Source: Sphingobacterium sp. SYP-B4668
Lineage (GTDB): Bacteria; Bacteroidota; Bacteroidia; Sphingobacteriales; Sphingobacteriaceae
DNA: 64,000 bases
Reading direction: 5' to 3'
Assembly: GCF_027627455.1 (NCBI RefSeq)
Contig: NZ_CP115483.1
Span: forward strand, 496,001-560,000
A program made the position numbers and the translations under genes. The notes under the pieces are model-generated. The model had not been told where the DNA came from. It did no database searches and worked only from the letters and a program-made list of their open reading frames with translations. The first letter of the stretch is position 1. Each line of letters opens with the position of its first letter. This document shows positions 33,225 to 45,312 of the stretch, piece by piece.

Positions 33225-35654
33225 TTATTCGTCCCGTAAGCTCTCCACCGGATTCTGACGGATAGCGCGTATCGCCTGTATACTCGTCGTGACTAATGCG
33301 ACGATAATGCATGCAATACCTGCCAAAGCAAAATCCCAAGGAGTGAGGTCTATTCGAAAAGTAAACTCTTTTAGCCAATTATTCATAAAATAATACGCAA
33401 TTGGTGAGGCAATTAGAGAAGCAATCACTACGAGCCAAATATAGTCCTTGGTCAACAATCCAAAGAGTTCGATATCTCGAGCACCCATGATTTTTCGGAT
33501 TCCGATTTCTTTTGTCCGTTGGTACGATGTCAGAGTAATCAAACCGAATAAACCAATACAGCTAATCATGAGTGTGACAGCGGTAGACGTGTTGATGAGT
33601 TTGGCTGTTCGGGTATAGGACTCGTACATTTCTTCAACATGCTGGTCGTAAAATTTATATTCAAATGTTTTTTTGGGATACAGATTTTTCCATTCCGTCT
33701 CCATAATCTGGATTGCCCTGGTCCAATTTGCCTTGTTAGGGTCGGAGAGTTTTACACTAATATTTTTTAAATCATCCTTTTCTCGATAATAGAATGCCAT
33801 CGGCGCAATTTCGCTTCTGAAATCATTTTGATTGAAATTTTTCACTACTCCAATTATACGTAGGTCAACTCTTTTTTCAGAACTCTCTTTTTTCTCTACT
33901 ACCTGACCAAGAGCGGCTTGAGCTGATTCGAATCCCATTGTAAGCACCGCTTTCTCATTAATAAGAATATGCGTAGAACTATCATTGAGCTGAAGAAATT
34001 TTTCTCCGGCCAACAATTTAATATCATAAAGGTCGAAGTAGTTTTCGTCGATAAATTTATTTTCGATATTAAATGTCACTTCCCCAGTATCCAATGTCCG
34101 ATATAATCGAGTAGACCACATTGAATTGTCAAAGGGGATTTGGCCAAGAGACACCATTGAAAACTCTGGATGCTTTTGCAGTGCTTGGCGATAAACACGT
34201 GCGTCCTTATTGTCCTTTTCGGATAGACCTGAAGGTAAACTTTGGATAATTACCGCATTATGGTTAAATCCTAAGTCTGCATGGAAGGCATAATGTAGCT
34301 GTTTCGCAATGATTAAGGTACAAATGACGAATAGTTGCGCAATGGTAAATTGAAATACGATGAGCACTTTTCGGAGGCCAGTCTTTTGCTTACTGTTGAC
34401 CTGTTGAGATTTGAGTGTCTTTACAATACTTACTTTTGTGCTCAACCATGCGGGGTACAATCCGTTAATTAGGGAAAGCAGTATAAGTAAGGCAAGTGCA
34501 AATACAATGATTTCACCCATACTTAAAAAGTCGCCGATATCTTTAGGGATTATTTCCTTGAAATTTTCATTAAAGAATTGAGTCAAGGGAATGGCTAGTA
34601 CAAATGCTCCCAAAAGGATTAGAATGGTTTCTACAAAAAAGGATTGGATAATCCCAGATGAATCTGCGCCTAGGGATTTTTGGATACCGATGAGTTTGGC
34701 CCGCTTCGACATTTGGGCGGTAGTCAAATTGATATAGTTAATACTTGCTAATGCAATAAGAAATACTGCTATACTTAATAAGATATATAATACTGCTCTG
34801 TCAGTCGTATGAGAGCTATTGTTTGCGGAGGGAGTGAAGTGTTTTTCATCAAGAGGCAGTAGATCGAACCATGTTTTGAATTTATAAGTTTTTTGAGCTT
34901 CTGCGGTTTCTTGGTCGATTTTTTTATTGATAGCGGAGAGCAGAGCCGCTTTCGTTTTATCGTTACTGATTTTGATATATAGTTGATGAGCGGAGTTGCG
35001 AGAATCCCAATCCGTACTAGTCCTATCTTTTTCTGGAATGGGGAAAAATTCTTTACCGTTAAAGCTGGATGGAAAATGGAGGTCCTCGATGATACCTGTT
35101 ACTGTATAGAGTAAGCTATCATTATAAGTTATAGTTTGACCGATGATATCCTGAGGAGCCGTGTTGTTAAAGTACAACTTAGCCCGAGATTCGGTCAGCA
35201 CTACTTCATTCGGCGTGGTAAATACCGTTTTTTTATTACCAGCGAGCCAACGGTAAGGTACCAGATCGAAATAAGAGGTCGTTGTAGACATTAAGTTGGT
35301 TGGACTTTCCAAATGATTTTCCTGTACTTCATTTGTTTTTACCTTGTTGAAGTATCGCATATGTAGGGGGACAATGAGGTCAGTCTCGCTACGTTCGTTT
35401 TCCAAAAATGAGGCAATAGGTAGTTGGATACCACCAAAGTAACTTTCTTTCCCCTCGAAAAAAGAATAAGATAGCACCTGATAGATTTTATTTTTGTCGG
35501 GATGTTCTCGGTCATATTTGAGTTCGTAATCCACGATACGGGCTATTGAGAAGCAGCCTGCTATACCGATCGCCAATCCCATTATATGGAGAAAGGTAAA
35601 CAGTTTTTGTTTCCAGAGCTGTCGAAGGGATAATTTGATGGACAACCAATTCAT
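33225..35654 (-). CDS. FtsX-like ABC transporter permease (MacB type)
   Basis: About 809 aa with the duplicated Bacteroidota permease layout: N-terminal TM helix (FTFLHIMGLAIGIAGCFSIA), a large periplasmic MacB_PCD domain, three TM helices around 285-400 (FtsX domain 1), another TM and periplasmic domain, and a final three-helix FtsX domain ending ARDIELFGLLTKD...AIRQNPVESLRDE. It is the last gene of the efflux operon and a paralogue of the next permease, so the pair probably forms a heterodimer. Cargo unknown. Confidence 0.92.
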   Translation of the reverse strand: MNWLSIKLSLRQLWKQKLFTFLHIMGLAIGIAGCFSIARIVDYELKYDREHPDKNKIYQVLSYSFFEGKESYFGGIQLPIASFLENERSETDLIVPLHMRYFNKVKTNEVQENHLESPTNLMSTTTSYFDLVPYRWLAGNKKTVFTTPNEVVLTESRAKLYFNNTAPQDIIGQTITYNDSLLYTVTGIIEDLHFPSSFNGKEFFPIPEKDRTSTDWDSRNSAHQLYIKISNDKTKAALLSAINKKIDQETAEAQKTYKFKTWFDLLPLDEKHFTPSANNSSHTTDRAVLYILLSIAVFLIALASINYINLTTAQMSKRAKLIGIQKSLGADSSGIIQSFFVETILILLGAFVLAIPLTQFFNENFKEIIPKDIGDFLSMGEIIVFALALLILLSLINGLYPAWLSTKVSIVKTLKSQQVNSKQKTGLRKVLIVFQFTIAQLFVICTLIIAKQLHYAFHADLGFNHNAVIIQSLPSGLSEKDNKDARVYRQALQKHPEFSMVSLGQIPFDNSMWSTRLYRTLDTGEVTFNIENKFIDENYFDLYDIKLLAGEKFLQLNDSSTHILINEKAVLTMGFESAQAALGQVVEKKESSEKRVDLRIIGVVKNFNQNDFRSEIAPMAFYYREKDDLKNISVKLSDPNKANWTRAIQIMETEWKNLYPKKTFEYKFYDQHVEEMYESYTRTAKLINTSTAVTLMISCIGLFGLITLTSYQRTKEIGIRKIMGARDIELFGLLTKDYIWLVVIASLIASPIAYYFMNNWLKEFTFRIDLTPWDFALAGIACIIVALVTTSIQAIRAIRQNPVESLRDE

Positions 35655-35729: not shown

Positions 35730-38129
35730 CTATTCGTTTCTTAAACTAGCAACAGGATTGGTATTCGCTATTTTAATTGCCTGAAAGCTGACTGTCAGGA
35801 CCGTCACGAACAAACCAATGAGAGCTGCAAAAGCGAAAAACTCCCATTTGATATCTATTCTATAGGCAAAATCTTGTAACCATTTTTGCATTACCCACCA
35901 AGATAATGGGGTGACAATCACCAATGCTACCATTAAAAGTTTTAGAAAATCAATAGAGACAAGTTTGACGATGGAGAGCATAGATGCACCAAGTATTTTA
36001 CGTATTCCTATTTCTTTCACCCTTCTTTGAATGACTAGAGATGAAAGCGCAAATAGCCCCAAGCCCGATACCAGTATTGTTGCAATGGAAAATATCGTCA
36101 AGATTTTGAGCGTCCGCTCTTCGGCTTTGTATAATGCATTGTATTCTTCATCTAAAAAATGATATTCGAATGGCTTGTCTTTGCTGAATTTTTTCCATTC
36201 ATGCTCAATTTGGGTGACTGTATTTTTAAGTTCCTTTGTATCCTTTACATTGACGAATAGTTTACCAAACCAATTATATTCAAGGAAGATGACAATGGGA
36301 CTTATTTTCTCATGGAGAGAGGAAAAATTAAAATCTTTGGATATGGCCTTAATTTTTCCTTTTCTTCCGTTAAGATTGACAGGTTTACCGATGGCTTCTT
36401 GTGCTCCCCATCCTAATTCCTGTAAGGTATTTTCATTAATGACAAAGCTGTACTCTGGTTCGATATCCGTTGAGTGTGTTCGTACAGCGTCCCCTTCTGT
36501 AAATCCTTCCCCAGCAGCTAATTTAATGTCGAAAACAGATAGAAAGTCCTTTTCTACTGGAATGCCAGTTACGTTGACCGATCTCTTGCCGGATGTGCCT
36601 TCTGCGTCCAACGTATAGCCGCCCATTACCTTTATCGGAGAATCATAAGAAGCGGTTACACCGCTGACATTATCATTATTCGCAACGACATTTTTTAAAG
36701 ACAGAAGATTAGGAATAGATAAATTTGAAGCATCTAAAACCAAGATTTTGGAACGGGCAATTCCCGTATCCTTTGACTGTAAATAGCGCATTTGCCCATC
36801 CACGATTAAAGTCGAAATAATAAATAATAATGCGAGTCCAAATTGGAAAACAACCAATCCTCTGCTCAACAGGGCACCTCGCGAACTCCTATGGATTTTG
36901 CCTTTTAAACTATCTGTCGGTTTTATGGACGACAGAGCCCATGCCGGAGCACCCCCTGCTATTAAAGAAATGATTAGGAATAGTATAGCAAGGGTCGCTA
37001 TGAACCACCCTCCCTTCCATATTTCTAAACTAAGTTGAATATCAGTGTAACTATTGAATAGCGGAATCAACAAAACCGCTCCAATAGTGCCAATGATGAG
37101 ACCAAGGGTGGAAGTAAAGATTGATTCTATTACAAATTGACCGAAAATATAATGTCTAGATGCCCCAATAACCTTTCGGATACCAATTTCATGTGCTCTC
37201 TCTGTCGATTTTGTCATCACGAGGTTCCCAAAATTGATACAGGCGATTAGCAATATTGAACAGGCAAGAATAGATAGTATGTAGAGGTATACGGGCTTGG
37301 GACCTCCCATTTGTGCAACATGTAATCTGACATCGGTCAGCTTCTCTAATGGAAATTTAACCTCGTAGCCAGCAGCAATCTCATCCGCAAATTGCTTCTT
37401 TAAATATGCGTCTATCTTTGTTTGAACGAGGGCGATATCATCAGGAGACTTAAGTAGGAAATACGAAATATCGTTGGCTTGGCCCCAAGAAGTTTCTTTG
37501 AAGCGAGATAGCGCATGATAAGGACCTAGTATGTTAAATTGGATTTGAGAATAGGAGGGGATGTCTCGTATGACGCCTGCAATTTTCCAAGGTTTGTCAT
37601 TCATGGTCAAGCTTTCTCCCAAAGGCTCTGCATCTCCAAAATAACGTTTAGCAGTAGATTCAGTGATGACGATAGAGCTAGGGTCCTTAAGGGCAAGTGT
37701 AGCATCTCCCTTTACAAATTCGAAACTGAAGATATCAAATATCGTTTCATCAGCAAAACAAAGACCGCCCTCATTGAGTACATGACCCTTATACGTTACC
37801 GGCACAGTTTGGTCTTTGTCACCTAGTTTGTAAATTCTAATTCCATCCTCTATTTCCGGAAATTGCTCTTTGAATGCCGGTACGGCAGCATTGGGTGTCC
37901 AAGCAGACTCAATGAAAGTTGGAGTGGAAGGGGCTCTGTAGCCAAAGGACATATAAACAATACGATCTGCTTTACTATGGAAACGGTCGAATCGAAGTTC
38001 TTGGATAATATATGTCCCCAGTAAGAAAAAACAGCAAATACCAAGTGCCAAACTTGCAACACTCACTAATGATGTGGTCTTGTTTTTTATGAGATACCGC
38101 CAAGCAATTTTAATATATGTCTGGAACAT
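35730..38129 (-). CDS. FtsX-like ABC transporter permease (MacB type), second copy
   Basis: 799 aa with the same two-unit layout as the downstream paralogue: TM1 (LVSVASLALGICCFFLLG), a MacB_PCD domain, the FtsX helices with ERAHEIGIRKVIGASR, a second periplasmic domain and a final FtsX block with RVKEIGIRKILGAS and the C-terminal ANTNPVASLRNE. It lies 10 bp after the ATPase gene and 75 bp before the other permease. With the ATPase, adaptor and TolC-like channel it makes a complete tripartite exporter. Confidence 0.92.
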   Translation of the reverse strand: MFQTYIKIAWRYLIKNKTTSLVSVASLALGICCFFLLGTYIIQELRFDRFHSKADRIVYMSFGYRAPSTPTFIESAWTPNAAVPAFKEQFPEIEDGIRIYKLGDKDQTVPVTYKGHVLNEGGLCFADETIFDIFSFEFVKGDATLALKDPSSIVITESTAKRYFGDAEPLGESLTMNDKPWKIAGVIRDIPSYSQIQFNILGPYHALSRFKETSWGQANDISYFLLKSPDDIALVQTKIDAYLKKQFADEIAAGYEVKFPLEKLTDVRLHVAQMGGPKPVYLYILSILACSILLIACINFGNLVMTKSTERAHEIGIRKVIGASRHYIFGQFVIESIFTSTLGLIIGTIGAVLLIPLFNSYTDIQLSLEIWKGGWFIATLAILFLIISLIAGGAPAWALSSIKPTDSLKGKIHRSSRGALLSRGLVVFQFGLALLFIISTLIVDGQMRYLQSKDTGIARSKILVLDASNLSIPNLLSLKNVVANNDNVSGVTASYDSPIKVMGGYTLDAEGTSGKRSVNVTGIPVEKDFLSVFDIKLAAGEGFTEGDAVRTHSTDIEPEYSFVINENTLQELGWGAQEAIGKPVNLNGRKGKIKAISKDFNFSSLHEKISPIVIFLEYNWFGKLFVNVKDTKELKNTVTQIEHEWKKFSKDKPFEYHFLDEEYNALYKAEERTLKILTIFSIATILVSGLGLFALSSLVIQRRVKEIGIRKILGASMLSIVKLVSIDFLKLLMVALVIVTPLSWWVMQKWLQDFAYRIDIKWEFFAFAALIGLFVTVLTVSFQAIKIANTNPVASLRNE

Positions 38130-38139
38130 GTCTATATAT

Positions 38140-38814
38140 TTAGGATTGACGCTCTAATACAACTTCGCCATCAAGCATTCGAATGACACGATGTGCAAAT
38201 TTGGCATCGTGGTCGCTATGTGTCACCATCACGATCGTCGTGCCAGCTTCATTGAGCTCTGTTAAGAGGTGCATCACCTCGTTACCATTGTTAGAATCCA
38301 AATTCCCCGTGGGCTCATCGGCTAATATAAGCTTGGGATTGTTGACTACTGCTCGTGCAACAGCTACACGCTGCTGTTGTCCTCCAGAAAGCTGCTGTGG
38401 AAAGTGATTTCGACGATGGGCAATCTGTACCTTTTCTAATACCTCTTCCACTCTTTTTTTTCTTTCAGCGGCAGGAACTTTAGTGTAAATCAAGGGAAGT
38501 TCAACATTTTCATAAACGGTGAGCTCATCAATCAGATTAAAGCTTTGAAAAACAAAACCTATCGTATGTTTCCGTAGTGCCGAGCGCTTGTTCTCATTGA
38601 ATTTAGCAACTTCTGTATCATTGAAAAGATAACTGCCCTCTTCAAAATCGTCGATGAGGCCCAACACGTTTAGTAGGGTGGATTTGCCGCAGCCTGATGG
38701 TCCCATGATGGCGACAAACTCCCCCTCTGTGACACGGAGATGTACGTTGTTGAGCGCCAGTGTTTCGATTTCATCTGTCCGGTAAAATTTTTGAAGTTGA
38801 TTTACTTTGATCAT
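38140..38814 (-). CDS. ABC transporter ATP-binding protein (LolD/MacB type)
   Basis: ATPase of about 224 aa: Walker A GPSGCGKST, Q-loop FVFQSFNL, signature LSGGQQQRV, Walker B LILADEPTGNLD, and switch His in VTHSDHD. The start is set at the ATG of MIKVNQLQ, where homology begins; the frame extends 27 codons upstream, but that stretch overlaps the adaptor gene's stop region and is unlike the family. It powers the adjacent FtsX-type permeases. Confidence 0.94.
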   Translation of the reverse strand: MIKVNQLQKFYRTDEIETLALNNVHLRVTEGEFVAIMGPSGCGKSTLLNVLGLIDDFEEGSYLFNDTEVAKFNENKRSALRKHTIGFVFQSFNLIDELTVYENVELPLIYTKVPAAERKKRVEEVLEKVQIAHRRNHFPQQLSGGQQQRVAVARAVVNNPKLILADEPTGNLDSNNGNEVMHLLTELNEAGTTIVMVTHSDHDAKFAHRVIRMLDGEVVLERQS

Positions 38815-38851
38815 AGTCTTAGATATTTCTTCTTTTTTTAAGTAGTGCTTC

Positions 38852-40105
38852 TTATTTCTGTATATTGAGCTCTTGGATTTTGTCATAACTTTCATAGCTA
38901 GACGTAATGACCTTGTCTCCCGGGTCTAATCCTTTAACGACCTCGTAGTAATCTGGATTTTGACGACCCAATTGTATATCCACTCGATAAGCAGAACTTC
39001 CATCTTCGGACAGTTTGAAAATCCAATTTCCGCCCGTTTGCTGGTAAAATCCACCTCTCGGTAGCAGAATCGCTTTGGTCTCATCACTCAGAGCTAATTT
39101 GATTTGTAACGTCTGCCCTCTGCGGATTCCTTGGGGAACCTCATTCATGAATTCCATATCTACCTGAAAACGACCATTGTTTACTTGCGAATAGACCTTC
39201 TTAACACGAAGGGTGTATTGTTTGTTATTCATCGTCAAGTTGCCCAATAAGTCATTATAGATTCGGGAGATATAATGTTCGTCTACATCTGCTCGCACTT
39301 TAAATCCGGTCAATACATCGATTTGACCAAGGCGCTCACCTACATTTTTGTTTTGTCCGATTTCGGCGTCAAATGAGGTCAACTGTCCATCCACAGGCGA
39401 CCGGACTACTAGATCGTCTACTTTCTTTCGCATAAGCTCCAGTGCCCGTTGTGTGCGTTCATACATCTGACGATCTTGCTTCACTTTTTGGGTTGTGGAT
39501 AGCGAGTCTTGCTGCAGTATCTTTTTGGTGAGTTCCATTCTTTCTTTCTGATAATGGAAGTCATTGACCGTCTTTTGATATTCTTGTTGGCCAATAGCCT
39601 TTTCGTCATAAAGTTTCTTATTCAGTCGATACAGTCGTTCAGCTTCTTTTAAGCCATTTTCGACATCTGCAAGTTGGTTTCTATTGTTGATAGACACCTG
39701 TTGAGCATTAGTTTGCGCAATTTGGGACTGCGTCAGCAAATTAAGGACCGACGTTTCTTGATTGACCAGACTGAGCTCTTGATCCGTGTTGGACAGACGC
39801 ATAATAGGGTCACCCTTTTTAAGGAATGCACCATCTTCTACATATTTTTCCTCTACTCGACCGCCTACAGATGCATCTAAGAATATACTATTGATGGGAA
39901 GCACAGAACCATTCAACGGAATGAATTCCTGGAAAGTATCTTCTTTTATCAGTTGTATGCTCAAACGTTCCGCCTTTACGTTGAGATTGCTTTTGCGTTG
40001 CATCATAGTAATGCTAAATCCAATCAAACTGATAAGAGTGATGACACCCACTATTGTCAGAATCTTCTTACTGGTCCAGGTTTTCTTTTTTAATGCTTTA
40101 TCCAT
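38852..40105 (-). CDS. HlyD-type periplasmic adaptor of the efflux system
   Basis: Membrane-fusion protein of ~417 aa: a single N-terminal TM helix (ILTIVGVITLISLIGFSITM), a split lipoyl/barrel-sandwich domain (GGRVEEKYVEDGAFLKKGDP and VRSPVDGQLTSF), a long alpha-helical hairpin, and a beta-barrel with C-terminal proximal domain. The start is placed at the ATG of MDKALKKK; the longer frame begins inside promoter DNA. It is the first gene of the minus-strand exporter operon, preceded by a -24-like element and a pair of palindromes. Confidence 0.92.
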   Translation of the reverse strand: MDKALKKKTWTSKKILTIVGVITLISLIGFSITMMQRKSNLNVKAERLSIQLIKEDTFQEFIPLNGSVLPINSIFLDASVGGRVEEKYVEDGAFLKKGDPIMRLSNTDQELSLVNQETSVLNLLTQSQIAQTNAQQVSINNRNQLADVENGLKEAERLYRLNKKLYDEKAIGQQEYQKTVNDFHYQKERMELTKKILQQDSLSTTQKVKQDRQMYERTQRALELMRKKVDDLVVRSPVDGQLTSFDAEIGQNKNVGERLGQIDVLTGFKVRADVDEHYISRIYNDLLGNLTMNNKQYTLRVKKVYSQVNNGRFQVDMEFMNEVPQGIRRGQTLQIKLALSDETKAILLPRGGFYQQTGGNWIFKLSEDGSSAYRVDIQLGRQNPDYYEVVKGLDPGDKVITSSYESYDKIQELNIQK

Positions 40106-40168
40106 GTTTGCTATCCTCGTTTCTGAATTCAGGATCAACTTTTTTACAAATTTCCTATATCTCCTTAA

Positions 40169-40183
40169 GTAAAGGATGTGCCA
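40169..40183 (-). promoter_or_regulatory. Candidate sigma-54 promoter for the exporter operon
   Basis: Minus strand reads TGGCAC-ATCCT-TTAC: a perfect -24 TGGCAC with the -12 block off consensus (TTAC for TTGC). The predicted start would be near 40157, ~50 nt before the adaptor ATG. It lies 54 bp from the nearest palindrome, matching the arrangement on the other side. Confidence 0.42.
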
Positions 40184-40237: not shown

Positions 40238-40253
40238 TGTTCGCTATCGGTCA
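40238..40253. promoter_or_regulatory. 16-bp palindrome, site 1 of left pair
   Basis: TGTTCGCTATCGGTCA; imperfect palindrome preserving TGnnCGnTAnCGnnCA. Centre is 21 bp from site 2. Likely operator/upstream activating site for the NtrC-type regulator encoded at 42.6 kb (inference). Confidence 0.65.
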
Positions 40254-40258
40254 CTTTC

Positions 40259-40274
40259 TGTTCGACAGCGAACA
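40259..40274. promoter_or_regulatory. 16-bp palindrome, site 2 of left pair
   Basis: TGTTCGACAGCGAACA; perfect TGTTCG/CGAACA arms around a 4-bp centre, five bases after site 1. Confidence 0.7.
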
Positions 40275-40339
40275 GCCATTACAAATTGCGATAATAGATC
40301 ACCATGGAGTTTAGGTTATTTTTTTGCATACTTGTCACT

Positions 40340-40834
40340 ATGTTCAATTCCTTTATACTTGAGAAATTCGCGCAAGTCGATTTTGATTTGTACTATGAGC
40401 TTGTCCGTGATGAGCATGTTATGGCCATGATTACAGAACGAGTCATTCCGCTGGAAGAAGCGAAGTCAGATTTTGAAAAAATAATACAGAATACTGCTCT
40501 TCATCCTTCCTTTGGATACTTTAAAATTATAGCCAGAGAAGATGGACGATTTGTGGGGCTGGCTAAGTTGGAGATAGAAACACCGGAAAGTTGGAACGCA
40601 GAATTGGGCTATATGCTTTTGCCAACATACTGGGGTATGGGGATTGGAAGCACTGTGGCCAGACAACTCATTGAAATAGCTAAGCTACATGTGCAGTTGC
40701 ACAAGTTGACCGCAATTATTGATCCTAGCAATATTGCCTCCCGAAAAATCCTAATCAATAATGGGTTTGTATCACAGGGATTTAAGAGCTTTGATGGTCT
40801 TCCAGGGGAGGTTTTGACAATGGATATCTCGTGA
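40340..40834 (+). CDS. GNAT-family N-acetyltransferase (RimJ/RimL-like)
   Basis: Acetyl-CoA-dependent acetyltransferase of about 164 aa from the ATG at 40340 (another ATG lies 12 codons upstream, but its extra residues do not resemble the family). ITERVIPLEEAKSDFEKI, GLAKLEIETPESWNAELGYMLLPTYWGMGIGSTVARQL (AcCoA-binding A motif) and the late NIASRKILINNGFV are typical. The target is unknown. The gene is bracketed by the two palindrome pairs of the exporter system, so it may be part of that regulon or simply sit between its two divergent halves. Confidence 0.88.
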   Translation: MFNSFILEKFAQVDFDLYYELVRDEHVMAMITERVIPLEEAKSDFEKIIQNTALHPSFGYFKIIAREDGRFVGLAKLEIETPESWNAELGYMLLPTYWGMGIGSTVARQLIEIAKLHVQLHKLTAIIDPSNIASRKILINNGFVSQGFKSFDGLPGEVLTMDIS

Positions 40835-40840
40835 TACTAC

Positions 40841-40856
40841 TGTTCGCTAGTGGACA
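40841..40856. promoter_or_regulatory. 16-bp palindrome, site 3 of right pair
   Basis: TGTTCGCTAGTGGACA; left arm exact, right arm with two changes. Centre is 21 bp from site 4, the same spacing as the left pair. Confidence 0.65.
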
Positions 40857-40861
40857 AATAC

Positions 40862-40877
40862 TGTTCGCTAACGAACA
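40862..40877. promoter_or_regulatory. 16-bp palindrome, site 4 of right pair
   Basis: TGTTCGCTAACGAACA; perfect TGTTCG/CGAACA arms. The flanks extend the inverted repeat to 12 bp per arm (40856-40883), so it could also act as a weak terminator for the acetyltransferase gene, but the absence of a T-run and the three sister sites favour a protein-binding site. Confidence 0.7.
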
Positions 40878-40928
40878 GTATTTGAAATAATGTAGTTTTA
40901 AGTGTCTGTTATTTAGCTTGTTGCTGGT

Positions 40929-40944
40929 TTGGCATCAGCTATGT
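40929..40944 (+). promoter_or_regulatory. Candidate sigma-54 promoter for the TolC-like gene
   Basis: TTGGCAT-CAGCT-ATGT: good -24 (TTGGCAT) with a poor -12 (ATGT for TTGC). It lies 53 bp past site 4. The segment also forms an imperfect inverted repeat (GGCATCAGCT / AGCTGATACC, 40931-40960). Confidence 0.38.
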
Positions 40945-40982
40945 GTGTAAAGCTGATACCAACATGCACTTGACTCATAGAT

Positions 40983-42335
40983 ATGAAATACTTATGTTTC
41001 CACACACGCTTTAAATACATTTATTTTTTGACCATTGTCCTTTATTTGTCTGCTCAACCTGCCGCAGGACAAGATTTGATTCAACATAGACGAAGTCTTC
41101 GTTCCTGTGTTGACTTAGCGTTAGAGCGTAATTTGGTACTGCAAAATCAGTCTTTAATAGAAGAACGTGCTGCATTAGGCTATACCCGCGCCTGGCAGGG
41201 ACGATTGCCATCCTTGAATGCTAGCTTGGGACACGGTCTTAGTGAAGGTAAAAGTATAGACCCTTCTACTAACCAGTTTATAAGTAAAAGATTCACCTCG
41301 GGCAATCAAGAATTAAATACGTCTGTAGTATTGTTTGATGGTTTGGGAATGCTATACGACATTCGCCAACAGGCTAGCCACAGCGATGCAGCGCAAAAGG
41401 AGCGAGAAGGGGCTGCAATGGGTTTAAAACTGGATGTAATTCTAGCCTATATGCAGGTGTGGACCGCACAAGACATATTGACTCAAGCGACGACCAACAT
41501 GTTGACCACCGCTGAACAACTGAAAAGGTCAACAACCTTACATCAACAGGGGGCAATCGCGCCGGGCGACTATTTCGATATCAAAGGGCAGTATGCTGCC
41601 GAAGCCTCAAATATCAATACTTTAAAACGGATACTCTTCGAGAGTCGTATTGCACTAGCGAGTCTAATGAATATAGCTGAACATGATTTAGGTGATCTAG
41701 AACCAGTTAATCGCCTGTTGCCAGGATTTGGAGATGTGGCTATGCAGGCCGAGCAGTTGTATCAAGCCGCCCAAATCGCTTTACCTGATTACCAAGCTTT
41801 GGAATCGAGGATAAGGGCAGCCGAGTATGGAATCAAATATGCAAAATCAGCCTATTTTCCAAGATTGACGTTCAACGCGGGGTTGAATAGCCAGTATTCA
41901 GGTACGTCAACAGATTCATATATCAAGCAAGTGGATAATAATTTAGGGAAGTATCTCTCTTTTGGGCTAAGTATCCCTATTTTTAATGGGTTTAAGGTCC
42001 GTAATCAAGTGAAAGAGGCTAAGCTTAATTATAGAAATCAAGAGATTGAAAATGAACAAAAAAAATTAGAACTTTTAAAACAGACAACTAAAACTGTGTT
42101 CGATTACAAACAATCATTTGAAAACATCCGATTGTTAAACGAGCAGGTGCAAGATTATAAAGAGTCATTTCGAATAGCTCAGGTTAGGTTTGATCAAGGG
42201 GATATCAACTCGGTGACATACATTATCTCCAAGAACAAATATGAGGAGGCCCAATCAAAGTTAACCATTGCCGAGTATCAGCTGACCTTGCAACGATATA
42301 CGATGGATTACTACCAAGGGAAGTTGGGTTTTTAA
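40983..42335 (+). CDS. TolC-family outer-membrane efflux protein
   Basis: 450-aa exported protein (signal ends PAAGQ) with two OEP repeats: an N-terminal CVDLALERNLVLQNQ helix, long coiled helices, LFDGLGMLYDIRQQ, and the second repeat with LSIPIFNGFKVRNQVKEAKLN and GDINSVTYIISKNKYEEAQ. It would be the outer-membrane channel of the exporter encoded divergently ~0.9 kb away, and it sits directly upstream of the two-component genes that probably control both. Confidence 0.92.
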   Translation: MKYLCFHTRFKYIYFLTIVLYLSAQPAAGQDLIQHRRSLRSCVDLALERNLVLQNQSLIEERAALGYTRAWQGRLPSLNASLGHGLSEGKSIDPSTNQFISKRFTSGNQELNTSVVLFDGLGMLYDIRQQASHSDAAQKEREGAAMGLKLDVILAYMQVWTAQDILTQATTNMLTTAEQLKRSTTLHQQGAIAPGDYFDIKGQYAAEASNINTLKRILFESRIALASLMNIAEHDLGDLEPVNRLLPGFGDVAMQAEQLYQAAQIALPDYQALESRIRAAEYGIKYAKSAYFPRLTFNAGLNSQYSGTSTDSYIKQVDNNLGKYLSFGLSIPIFNGFKVRNQVKEAKLNYRNQEIENEQKKLELLKQTTKTVFDYKQSFENIRLLNEQVQDYKESFRIAQVRFDQGDINSVTYIISKNKYEEAQSKLTIAEYQLTLQRYTMDYYQGKLGF

Positions 42336-42640: not shown

Positions 42641-43993
42641 ATGAAAAAATCAACGATATTGGTTGTAGATGACGATCAGGATTTACTTACAGCTGTCCGA
42701 CTTTTACTGAAACCAAAAGTCGGAGAGGTGATTGTCGAGAGCAATCCAGAAAATATCATGTCCATACTCTCCAAAAGGGAAGTGAATGCAGTGCTACTGG
42801 ATATGAATTTTAAAAGTGCAGTCAATACCGGTAATGAAGGTTTATTCTGGTTGTCGAAAATTCGGAGTAGCTATCCCGTATTACCCATCATTATGATTAC
42901 GGCCTACGGAGCTGTCGACCTTGCCGTCAAATCCTTGAAGAATGGCGCTTCTGATTTTATTGTCAAGCCGTGGCAGAATGAGACATTGTTGACGGGAGTC
43001 GGCGAAGTATTGTCTACACAAAAAAATAAATTCGAAAAGCAAAGTGCCAATAAACTTCAGATCTCGGATACCGAACTGTTGGGAGATTCAGAAGTAATGG
43101 AGGAGTTGCAATATAAAATTTCTAAAATAGCACCTACAGACGCCAATATCTTGATTTTAGGGGAAAACGGGACCGGAAAGGACGTTATAGCTCGAGAAAT
43201 ACACAAGCGATCGTTACGGGCAAAAAGTGATTATATCAAGGTAGACGTGGGCGCTCTTACAGATTCTCTGTTTGAAAGTGAGTTATTTGGATACAAAAAG
43301 GGAGCTTTTACAGACGCACGTGAAGATCGTAAGGGAAGAGTGGAGTTAGCACACAAGGGTACTCTATTCTTGGACGAAATAGGAAATATATCCCTACAGC
43401 AACAAGCTAAGTTACTAACCGTTTTACAAAATAGACAAGTGACGGCTCTTGGGAGCCACATACCCTTAGAGGTCGATATCAGATTGTTATGCGCGACGAA
43501 TGTGCCCATTCGAGAGCTCTCTGACGAGAATAGATTCCGAAAAGATTTGATTTATAGGATTAATACGGTGGAAATACAAGTGCCGCCTTTACGTTCAAGA
43601 GGGAAGGATATAGGGCTACTTGCAAATTATTTTTTGACGGTATACGCGCGGAAGTACGGGAAAGCTATGGCTGGGTTCTCAGATGAATCGACAGCCAAGT
43701 TAAACGCGTATCATTTTCCTGGAAATGTTAGGGAATTACAGTATAGCATAGAACGTGCGGTCATCATGTCCGATAGTGATGAGATTATTGGAAAAGACCT
43801 CATTTTTTCACCCATCGAGCGTTCTTCTCAACCTCAACCAGTAGAGACGGATTATCAACATTTGGAAACATTGGAGCGAATCACCATTGCCAAAGTTATC
43901 GAAAAACACAATGGCAATATCAGTCGAGCTGCTCGGGAGCTAGGACTAACGCGTTCGGCATTATATAGAAGGTTAGAGAAGTATAATTTGTGA
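42641..43993 (+). CDS. Sigma-54-dependent NtrC-family response regulator
   Basis: Three domains: receiver (1-120) with D10-D12 acidic pocket and phospho-acceptor D54; AAA+ sigma-54 activator domain with Walker A GENGTGKD (174-181), a GAFTDA loop (221-226) in place of GAFTGA, and Walker B TLFLDEIGN; and a C-terminal Fis-type HTH (GNISRAARELGLTRSALYRR). 450 aa is typical. The GAFTDA variant recurs in this phylum from memory. It overlaps the kinase gene start, forming a two-component pair beside the exporter genes, whose palindromes are its probable sites. Confidence 0.95.
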   Translation: MKKSTILVVDDDQDLLTAVRLLLKPKVGEVIVESNPENIMSILSKREVNAVLLDMNFKSAVNTGNEGLFWLSKIRSSYPVLPIIMITAYGAVDLAVKSLKNGASDFIVKPWQNETLLTGVGEVLSTQKNKFEKQSANKLQISDTELLGDSEVMEELQYKISKIAPTDANILILGENGTGKDVIAREIHKRSLRAKSDYIKVDVGALTDSLFESELFGYKKGAFTDAREDRKGRVELAHKGTLFLDEIGNISLQQQAKLLTVLQNRQVTALGSHIPLEVDIRLLCATNVPIRELSDENRFRKDLIYRINTVEIQVPPLRSRGKDIGLLANYFLTVYARKYGKAMAGFSDESTAKLNAYHFPGNVRELQYSIERAVIMSDSDEIIGKDLIFSPIERSSQPQPVETDYQHLETLERITIAKVIEKHNGNISRAARELGLTRSALYRRLEKYNL

Positions 43994-45312
43994 TGGAGCG
44001 GTTCAAATGGTCGGTATTTTGTAGTCATTTGCTTTTGGTGGCGCTAGGAGCACTAAGCTTTTACACGTTTGATAGAGCATACTATGGTACCACGATTTTA
44101 TTAGGAATGTTGATTGTAGCGCTGCTGATTATTGTCCTCAAACGTCAATTTTCCATCTACGATGTATTCATGGATTTTGTGGAATCAACTAGGCATCGAG
44201 ATTTTACGCGATTTTATGTCACAAGCAAGAGAGATAAGACCAAACGTAAAATACACGAAGCTTTCAACCAAATTAATGCAACATTCAAAGAAATCAGCGT
44301 CTCTAAAGAATTGCAGTATCAATACCTCAATCAGATCGTGAATATGTTGGATACAGCCATATTTACCTACTATCCGGATAAGGATAAAGTGATCTGGATG
44401 AATGAAGCATTCCGTATATTATTTGACATCCCATATGTCGGAAAGTTCTCCTCTCTCAAGAAGCGAAATAATGAGCTTTTCGAGACTATCAGCAGTCTGA
44501 ACATCGGTCAACAGCACATAGAGGCTGTCTCCTCGTCCAAGGGCAAGGTAAAGTTGTTGATGCAGTTGTCAGAGCTGCAGACACAAGAAGGACGATGTCA
44601 GATTGTGGTCTTTCAGAATGTCAATGAAGCTATTGATGAAACGGAGACTAGGGCATGGCAGAAGCTATTACGAGTGTTGACACATGAGATTATGAATTCG
44701 ATAGCTCCGATCTCATCTCTGGCCGAGACCATGAGTGTACAGTTGGAGCGGAAGCAATTGACCGAAGATTTGGAAGATATACGTGTAGGGGTGGATACGA
44801 TTAAAAATAGAAGCGAAGGATTGTTGAAGTTTGCAAAGAGTTATCGAACCATCAATAAAATTGATAAACCGCAATTGCAAGATATAGCGGTGTCCGAAAT
44901 GTTTGAAACCATTTATCAGCTTCTTGAACCAACTTTTATTCAGAAAAATATTGAGGTGGATTTGATTTTGAAACCGACTCGGATGCGTTTGCATGCAGAT
45001 GCCAACCTCATTGAACAGGTATTGATTAATCTTATCCTTAATGCTATGGAAGCAGTCAAGGACGCGCCAAGTCCTTATATCAGCATATCGGCGATAGAAA
45101 GGTCGGGACGGGTACAATTAAGTGTAACAGACAACGGTGTCGGAATGGATACCGAGTTGATGGAAAATATTTTTACGCCCTTTTTCACAACGCGTAAATC
45201 GGGAAGTGGGGTAGGTCTCACACTCAGTAAGCAAATCATGTTGATTCACCGTGGAAATATCTTGGTAGAATCTAAGCTAGGAAAGGGCAGTACCTTTTCT
45301 TTACAATTTTGA
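43993..45312 (+). CDS. Membrane sensor histidine kinase partner of the NtrC-type regulator
   Basis: Two N-terminal TM helices (~10-27, ~30-48) with a minimal periplasmic part, a PAS-like segment (~115-200, LDTAIFTYYPDKDKVIWMNE), a HisKA box with H231 (LTHEIMNSIAP) and a HATPase domain with N box NLILNAMEAV, DNGVGMD and GSGVGLTLSKQIM. The start is the ATG in TGATG overlapping the regulator stop; a GTG one codon earlier is possible. With almost no periplasmic domain it probably senses in or at the membrane, fitting a regulator of an exporter for membrane-active compounds. Confidence 0.93.
   Translation: MERFKWSVFCSHLLLVALGALSFYTFDRAYYGTTILLGMLIVALLIIVLKRQFSIYDVFMDFVESTRHRDFTRFYVTSKRDKTKRKIHEAFNQINATFKEISVSKELQYQYLNQIVNMLDTAIFTYYPDKDKVIWMNEAFRILFDIPYVGKFSSLKKRNNELFETISSLNIGQQHIEAVSSSKGKVKLLMQLSELQTQEGRCQIVVFQNVNEAIDETETRAWQKLLRVLTHEIMNSIAPISSLAETMSVQLERKQLTEDLEDIRVGVDTIKNRSEGLLKFAKSYRTINKIDKPQLQDIAVSEMFETIYQLLEPTFIQKNIEVDLILKPTRMRLHADANLIEQVLINLILNAMEAVKDAPSPYISISAIERSGRVQLSVTDNGVGMDTELMENIFTPFFTTRKSGSGVGLTLSKQIMLIHRGNILVESKLGKGSTFSLQF

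Follow-up and report, generated by a model that had tools for sequence, protein, structure and literature searches.

The window analysed here, 64,000 bp of the genome of Sphingobacterium sp. SYP-B4668, contains two sets of genes that diverge from a region holding four short palindromes. On the minus strand lie a gene for an HlyD-type adaptor (38852..40105; Pfam HlyD_3), a gene for an ABC ATPase (38140..38895, as a mechanical ORF; Pfam ABC_tran) and two genes encoding FtsX/MacB_PCD permeases (35730..38129 and 33225..35654; Pfam), the first of which has two FtsX and two core stretches. The mechanical ORF of the adaptor reaches upstream to 40192, and the ATG at 40105 is the likely start. On the plus strand, a gene for a GNAT acetyltransferase (40304..40834; Pfam) is followed by genes for a TolC-like outer-membrane efflux protein (40983..42335; Pfam OEP), an NtrC-type response regulator (42641..43993; Pfam) and a histidine kinase (43990..45312; domain search), the last two overlapping by 4 bp. 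Adaptor, ABC ATPase, permease and outer-membrane channel are encoded together, and the same gene set is present in relatives.

The palindromes, to which no strand is assigned, flank the acetyltransferase gene as two pairs. The left pair consists of an outer site, TGTTCGCTATCGGTCA (40238..40253), and an inner site, TGTTCGACAGCGAACA (40259..40274); the right pair has TGTTCGCTAGTGGACA (40841..40856) as its inner and TGTTCGCTAACGAACA (40862..40877) as its outer site. TGTTCGACAGCGAACA and TGTTCGCTAACGAACA match the consensus TGTTCGN4CGAACA exactly, and the other two were identified by reading the letters and by pattern match. Each site is 16 bp long and the centres within each pair are 21 bp apart, as an earlier reading of this DNA, made from the sequence only, had stated. 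The exact consensus occurs at only two sites in the entire 5.42-Mb genome (a single contig), both within these pairs. With up to 3 mismatches allowed, the pair pattern was found at three places in the genome and its reversed control at none. The third pair (C1:4508812-4508848; L038 8813-8849), also with 21-bp spacing, lies upstream of genes for another FtsX/MacB-core permease and an ABC ATPase, has a TGGCAC 53 bp outside it, and is likely a further target of the same control. The TolC-like gene itself contains a single unpaired palindrome at 42097-42112, TGTTCGATTACAAACA, which departs from the consensus at one position. Between 40000 and 42700, matches to sigma-70-type promoters (6 versus 7.9 in shuffled sequences) and to terminators (1 versus 1.5, the one match not being at the pairs) are at the level expected by chance.

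A scan of related genomes for pairs with 21-bp spacing, a check that the sequence-only reading had itself proposed for loci with MacB, TolC and NtrC genes, identified pairs in 53 of 151 genomes of the family, mostly before exporter genes, with matches to the reversed pattern in 2 of 151 (up to 3 mismatches in both cases). The description of the paired palindromes as solid is upheld by these near-zero controls, and the pairs are not a product of chance. When sites without mismatches were searched for with any gap from 0 to 30 bp between them, the gaps at the places listed were all 4, 5 or 6 bp; the period of 21 bp (20-22) is hence a real constraint. Across the phylum, scanned with 2 mismatches and a slightly wider pattern than the family, pairs are present in 31 of 395 genomes and a control match in one. 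Outside the family, 28 genomes have pairs; 20 of these loci were fetched and 8 were left out, several of the 8 being apparent chance matches in GC-rich or coding sequence. From the stretches fetched from the family, together with the window, 149 distinct pairs were picked by the motif alone, with gaps of 4, 5 and 6 bp in 2, 117 and 30 of them, respectively; the genomes are kin to one another and such counts are therefore not independent.

Outward from each pair in the window there is a TGGCA element, as previously claimed, although the distances are 54 bp on the left, where the T of the minus-strand element is at 40183, and 52 bp on the right, where that of the plus-strand element is at 40930, rather than the 54-55 and 53 bp given before. 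Both elements have the -24 GG, and each is part of a predicted sigma-54-like promoter, TGGCACATCCTTTACTT (40167..40183, minus strand), which faces the adaptor, ABC and permease genes, and TGGCATCAGCTATGTGT (40930..40946, plus strand), which faces the TolC-like gene. The predictions rest on the letters and on orthologous TGGCA elements 52-54 bp out in Sphingobacterium loci, and they place the starts of transcription near 40157 and near 40956. Among the 298 flanks of the 149 pairs, TGG[CT] is located 51, 52, 53 and 54 bp outside the pair in 11, 38, 44 and 17 cases, respectively, that is in 110 flanks in all, with ~2 matches per position elsewhere. There are minor peaks at 62-66 bp (29 matches) and 73-77 bp (34 matches), one and two helical turns further out; both the 20-22-bp period of the inverted repeats and these peaks thus place the sites in helical phase with the promoter. 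Of the 149 pairs, 110 have TGG[CT] at 50-55 bp on at least one side and 39 on neither.

Alignment at the TGG of 116 promoters, of which about 1 in 10 could be a chance TGG by background, revealed T-rich bases, then TGGCA and then TTTG at the spacing of a sigma-54 promoter. A G at -13, a feature not imposed by the alignment, is present in 82 of the 116, although absent from the left promoter of the window, and there is an excess of A at about +2. When near-duplicates were removed, 86% of the remaining 95 promoters had a T at -34, eight bases before the TGG, often followed by an A. The same features recur beyond the family: in the 20 loci fetched there, TGG[CT]A is positioned 51-55 bp out in 13 of 50 flanks and 61-65 bp out in 12 of 50, with 7 matches elsewhere, and the G at -13 and the T at -34 are each present in 18 of 25 promoters.

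To assign a target to each of the 116 promoters, the longest ORF of at least 60 aa starting 20-500 bp downstream was compared with the proteins of the source genome. The targets are permease genes in 51 cases, adaptor genes in 22, TolC genes in 13, ABC genes in 4, regulator genes in 2 and other genes in 15, with no ORF in 9; three of these matches are the source genome's own reference genes. That exporter genes mostly lie downstream of the pairs in relatives lends comparative support to the tripartite exporter proposed from the window. In four loci (L159, L166, L167, L177) a pair-driven promoter precedes a recurrent protein of 184-197 aa that, by eye, has a signal-like start (MKTLV...). It matches none of the proteins of the loci and may be a small envelope protein belonging to this regulon. 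In two others (L113, L128), outside the exporter theme, a pair-driven promoter precedes a gene for a protein of 393-394 aa that resembles, by eye, a ROK-family regulator.

The two-way arrangement is conserved in the genus. In 14 regulator-bearing Sphingobacterium loci the genes form a divergent set, with permeases, ABC ATPase and adaptor encoded in one direction and TolC, regulator and kinase in the other, the order of the ABC and permease genes varying from locus to locus. In 13 of the 14, counting pairs with up to 4 mismatches, there is a TGG 52-54 bp out in both directions, the exception being L249; in L204 and L209 one shared pair serves both directions. The acetyltransferase gene, in contrast, is not part of the system: it was searched for in 16 related loci, one of which (L213) is cut before the region, and no match was found. 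The gene is therefore most likely an incidental local insertion between the pairs.

In the regulator, which with its kinase had been read as a sigma-54 activator encoded downstream, the Response_reg, Sigma54_activat and HTH_8 domains, that is a receiver, an AAA+ sigma-54 activator and a Fis HTH, all score above the Pfam cut-off, and the best solved relative is NtrC1 (4l4u; E = 5e-83). Its orthologues in Sphingobacterium are 64-68% identical. An orthologue with at least 48% identity, a cut chosen after the identities had been seen, is encoded in 79 of the 151 family genomes, and pairs are present in 51 of these 79 versus 2 of the 72 genomes without an orthologue (Fisher 2.4e-17). With a stricter cut of 59%, the corresponding hand counts are 38 of 65 and 15 of 86. 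Within the genus, also counted by hand, 12 of the 13 genomes with an orthologue have pairs (G016 has none) and none of the 6 without an orthologue has. The earlier reading had named absence of the palindromes from orthologous loci as a finding that would count against it, and within the genus that finding is not borne out. In the Mucilaginibacter and Chitinophagaceae loci (most of L216-L281), however, the regulator is encoded beside exporter genes, and neither a pair nor a promoter of this kind is visible, with few exceptions (for example, L224 and L247). Upstream of the exporter genes of these two groups, TGG[CT]A-N7-TG has 9 matches in 278 regions, none with a TGT-N10-ACA upstream. A generic scan for palindrome pairs in 63 loci, mostly without the motif, gave no clear signal (97 real versus 77 reversed), with a near-consensus pair in L276. 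A variant, TGTGCGN4CGCACA, is present in one Pontibacter (L229) and one Rufibacter (L279) locus and was not seen in other loci of these genera (L251, L262, L267, L271).

A less likely reading of this incomplete overlap is that the pairs are operators of a different dimeric regulator, the NtrC-type gene being a neighbour by coincidence. Consistent with this, 28 of the 79 orthologue-bearing genomes lack a pair with up to 3 mismatches allowed, two genomes (G015 with 11 pairs, G045 with 2) have pairs and no orthologue at 48% with up to 11 candidates scored per genome, and the recognition helices of the Mucilaginibacter and Chitinophagaceae orthologues are nearly the same as those of the lineages with pairs. 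Such a coincidence is nevertheless improbable, given the co-occurrence of regulator and pairs across the family, the division within the genus, the adjacency of pair and regulator gene in several relatives and the helical phasing of the sites to the -24-like element.

The pairs are, we conclude, very probably enhancers for the NtrC-type regulator encoded at 42641, acting on sigma-54-like promoters of a predicted tripartite exporter. Two dimers of the regulator would bind side by side on each pair, two helical turns apart, and from there would activate the sigma-54-like promoter with the TGGCA located 52-54 bp outward. Leftward transcription of the presumed operon of adaptor, ABC and permease genes would depend on one pair, and rightward transcription of the TolC gene, perhaps with the regulator and kinase genes behind it, on the other. 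In the gap between the TolC gene and the regulator gene no such promoter is visible. A signal presumably received by the kinase would in this way switch on both halves of the exporter, and with them export of its presumed substrate, together. The two-way sigma-54 control first proposed from the window has thus gained comparative support, from the fixed distance between pair and TGG at 149 pairs, from the 13 of 14 two-way loci and from the co-occurrence with the regulator.

The -12 blocks, already described as poor, do not have the GC doublet, reading GG-N10-AC on the left and GG-N10-GT on the right, and the promoters are therefore filed as a variant of the sigma-54 promoter rather than as canonical members. 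Poor -12 blocks characterise the regulon and the lineage and are not the result of local decay at the site in the window. A C is present at -12 in 19 of the 116 aligned promoters, which is background level, and remains at background in the 95 left after removal of near-duplicates; outside the family it is present in 3 of 25. To separate regulon from lineage, TTTGGCAC-N5-TTGCW and TTTGGCAC-N5-TTGDW were counted against reversed patterns, with genomes outside the class of Sphingobacterium as the control for a preference for C; these are pattern counts in related genomes and not mapped promoters. In 40 Sphingobacterium genomes there are 19 TTGCW matches versus 15 reversed and 98 TTGDW matches versus 39 reversed. 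Of 296 phylum genomes, tallied by hand, the 73 of the class have 18 versus 17 and 192 versus 63, respectively; a further 64, all from a single family (f18) that is not part of the class and was singled out after the table had been seen, have 76 versus 7 and 78 versus 23; and the other 159 have 63 versus 31 and 243 versus 121. By Fisher tests, the counts for the class are distinct from those for f18 (8e-19), for the other 159 genomes (2e-4) and for these two sets combined (9e-11). A C at -12 is thus clearly preferred in f18, the rest of the phylum is mixed, and in the class there is no preference.

Recurrent TTTGGCAC-N5-TTG(not C) sites, not chosen by the presence of pairs, are also located ~50-70 bp before Sphingobacterium genes (L302, L314, L330; L305, L308, L318; L319, L324) that by eye appear envelope-like, encoding porin-like proteins, small membrane proteins and lipoproteins. 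These are likely other targets of sigma-54. Among such promoter-like sites not chosen by pairs, 10 of 23, drawn from 30 loci, have the T at -34.

RpoN is encoded in the source genome and in 148 of the 151 family genomes. The source protein, whose nearest named relative is 92% identical and also from Sphingobacterium, aligns over its length with E. coli sigma-54 and has an intact RpoN box. In a stretch that we take to lie after the helix-turn-helix, it reads QTEFGTFLLKSFF versus HSPRGIFELKYFF in E. coli sigma-54. The best 120 of 8000 RpoN homologues were too close for the -12-reading helix to be compared across phyla. According to passages in PMC7057263, the helix-turn-helix of sigma-54 reads the -12 element and the GAFTGA loop of the activator is placed to touch DNA there. 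In the regulator of the window this loop reads GAFTDA. Among 110 rows from 111 orthologous loci, some of the same genome, 98 have GAFTDA, 10 GAYTDA and 2 GSFTGA; outside the family, where the loop was read in 10 of the 20 loci, there are 9 GAFTDA and one GSFTGA (L347). Of the other three activators of the source genome, two have GSFTSA and GAFTGA. The change to GAFTDA as the sole cause of the missing C was considered and is unsupported, as promoter-like sites genus-wide and class-wide also have no preference for C. A link between activator loop, sigma factor and promoter may exist.

With a changed loop and no C at -12, it could be argued that the NtrC-type regulator binds the pairs and that transcription is by a different form of RNA polymerase, the GAFTDA loop no longer remodelling sigma-54 and the regulator being an ordinary activator or repressor. 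There are precedents, as passages in PMC3162934 describe some regulators with a broken GAFTGA, HupR and TyrR, as sigma-70 dependent. However, the fixed -24-like TGGCA and the G at -13 are at sigma-54 spacing both inside and outside the family, the genome encodes RpoN with its RpoN box intact, and GAFTDA and GAYTDA are both listed, in passages of PMC4641369, among the variants that would keep activity; we consider a different polymerase unlikely and RpoN dependence probable. A reading of the palindromes as a dispersed repeat, a terminator or the remnant of a mobile element flanking the acetyltransferase gene is scarcely credible, despite the lack of that gene in the related loci searched, as the exact site has only two copies in the genome, the one terminator-like site nearby is not at the pairs, and relatives have the pairs at a fixed distance to TGG without the acetyltransferase.

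Enhancer control by the NtrC-type regulator, the preferred reading, has close parallels in systems of the NtrC and NifA type, in which inverted-repeat sites lie upstream of a -24/-12 promoter with helical phasing and are used by a receiver-AAA+-Fis regulator. The outline of a NifA site is TGT-N10-ACA, and the half-sites of the palindromes spell the same outline. Unlike these systems, the two sites here are locked 20-22 bp apart and are mostly 51-54 bp from the -24 element, one control region serves two directions, the -12 element has no C and the loop is GAFTDA. MacAB-TolC exporters likewise have an adaptor, an ABC ATPase, an FtsX/MacB-core permease and a TolC-like protein. MacB is an ATPase fused to a four-helix permease, whereas here that fusion is not seen: the ATPase is separate and the permeases, of 799-809 aa, have doubled FtsX and core stretches. 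The closeness of the pair to the promoter is alone not unusual, since, according to passages of PMC4641369, the largest share of Desulfovibrio promoters have their nearest activator site no more than 100 nt away. A tie between sigma-54 and this permease family has already been proposed for the class: passages in PMC12316311 predict that FtsX-like permeases (COG0577) in Bacteroidia are preceded by sigma-54 promoters, which its authors regard as first evidence. The prediction used matrices built up from 720 validated promoters as the seed, with the consensus TGGCACN5-7TTGCT. Those passages, unlike the present analysis, have no activator, enhancer sites or -12 change, and UAS has 0 occurrences in the main text. 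In the literature covered, with subscription journals mostly outside that coverage, no description was found of such enhancer pairs, of the activator or of the missing -12 C.

The control region is real, conserved and two-way, and is best regarded as a new form of sigma-54 enhancer control. A wider reading, which we put forward tentatively and which the tally of the 159 other phylum genomes makes slightly less probable, is that the class of Sphingobacterium has re-written the sigma-54 code: RpoN would no longer read a C at -12 (TTTGGCAC-N5-TTTGN) and would work with a widespread GAFTDA activator and close, paired, two-way enhancers in an ancient regulon of envelope exporters. If so, the T conserved at -34 where enhancers drive the promoter would serve as an additional contact or as a bend point. 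For a group on which little literature was found, the findings name a likely sigma-54 activator together with its enhancer code and target genes. They also suggest that sigma-54 promoters of this class would escape scans built on TTGC, and the class may offer a natural example of joint change in sigma factor, activator loop and promoter.
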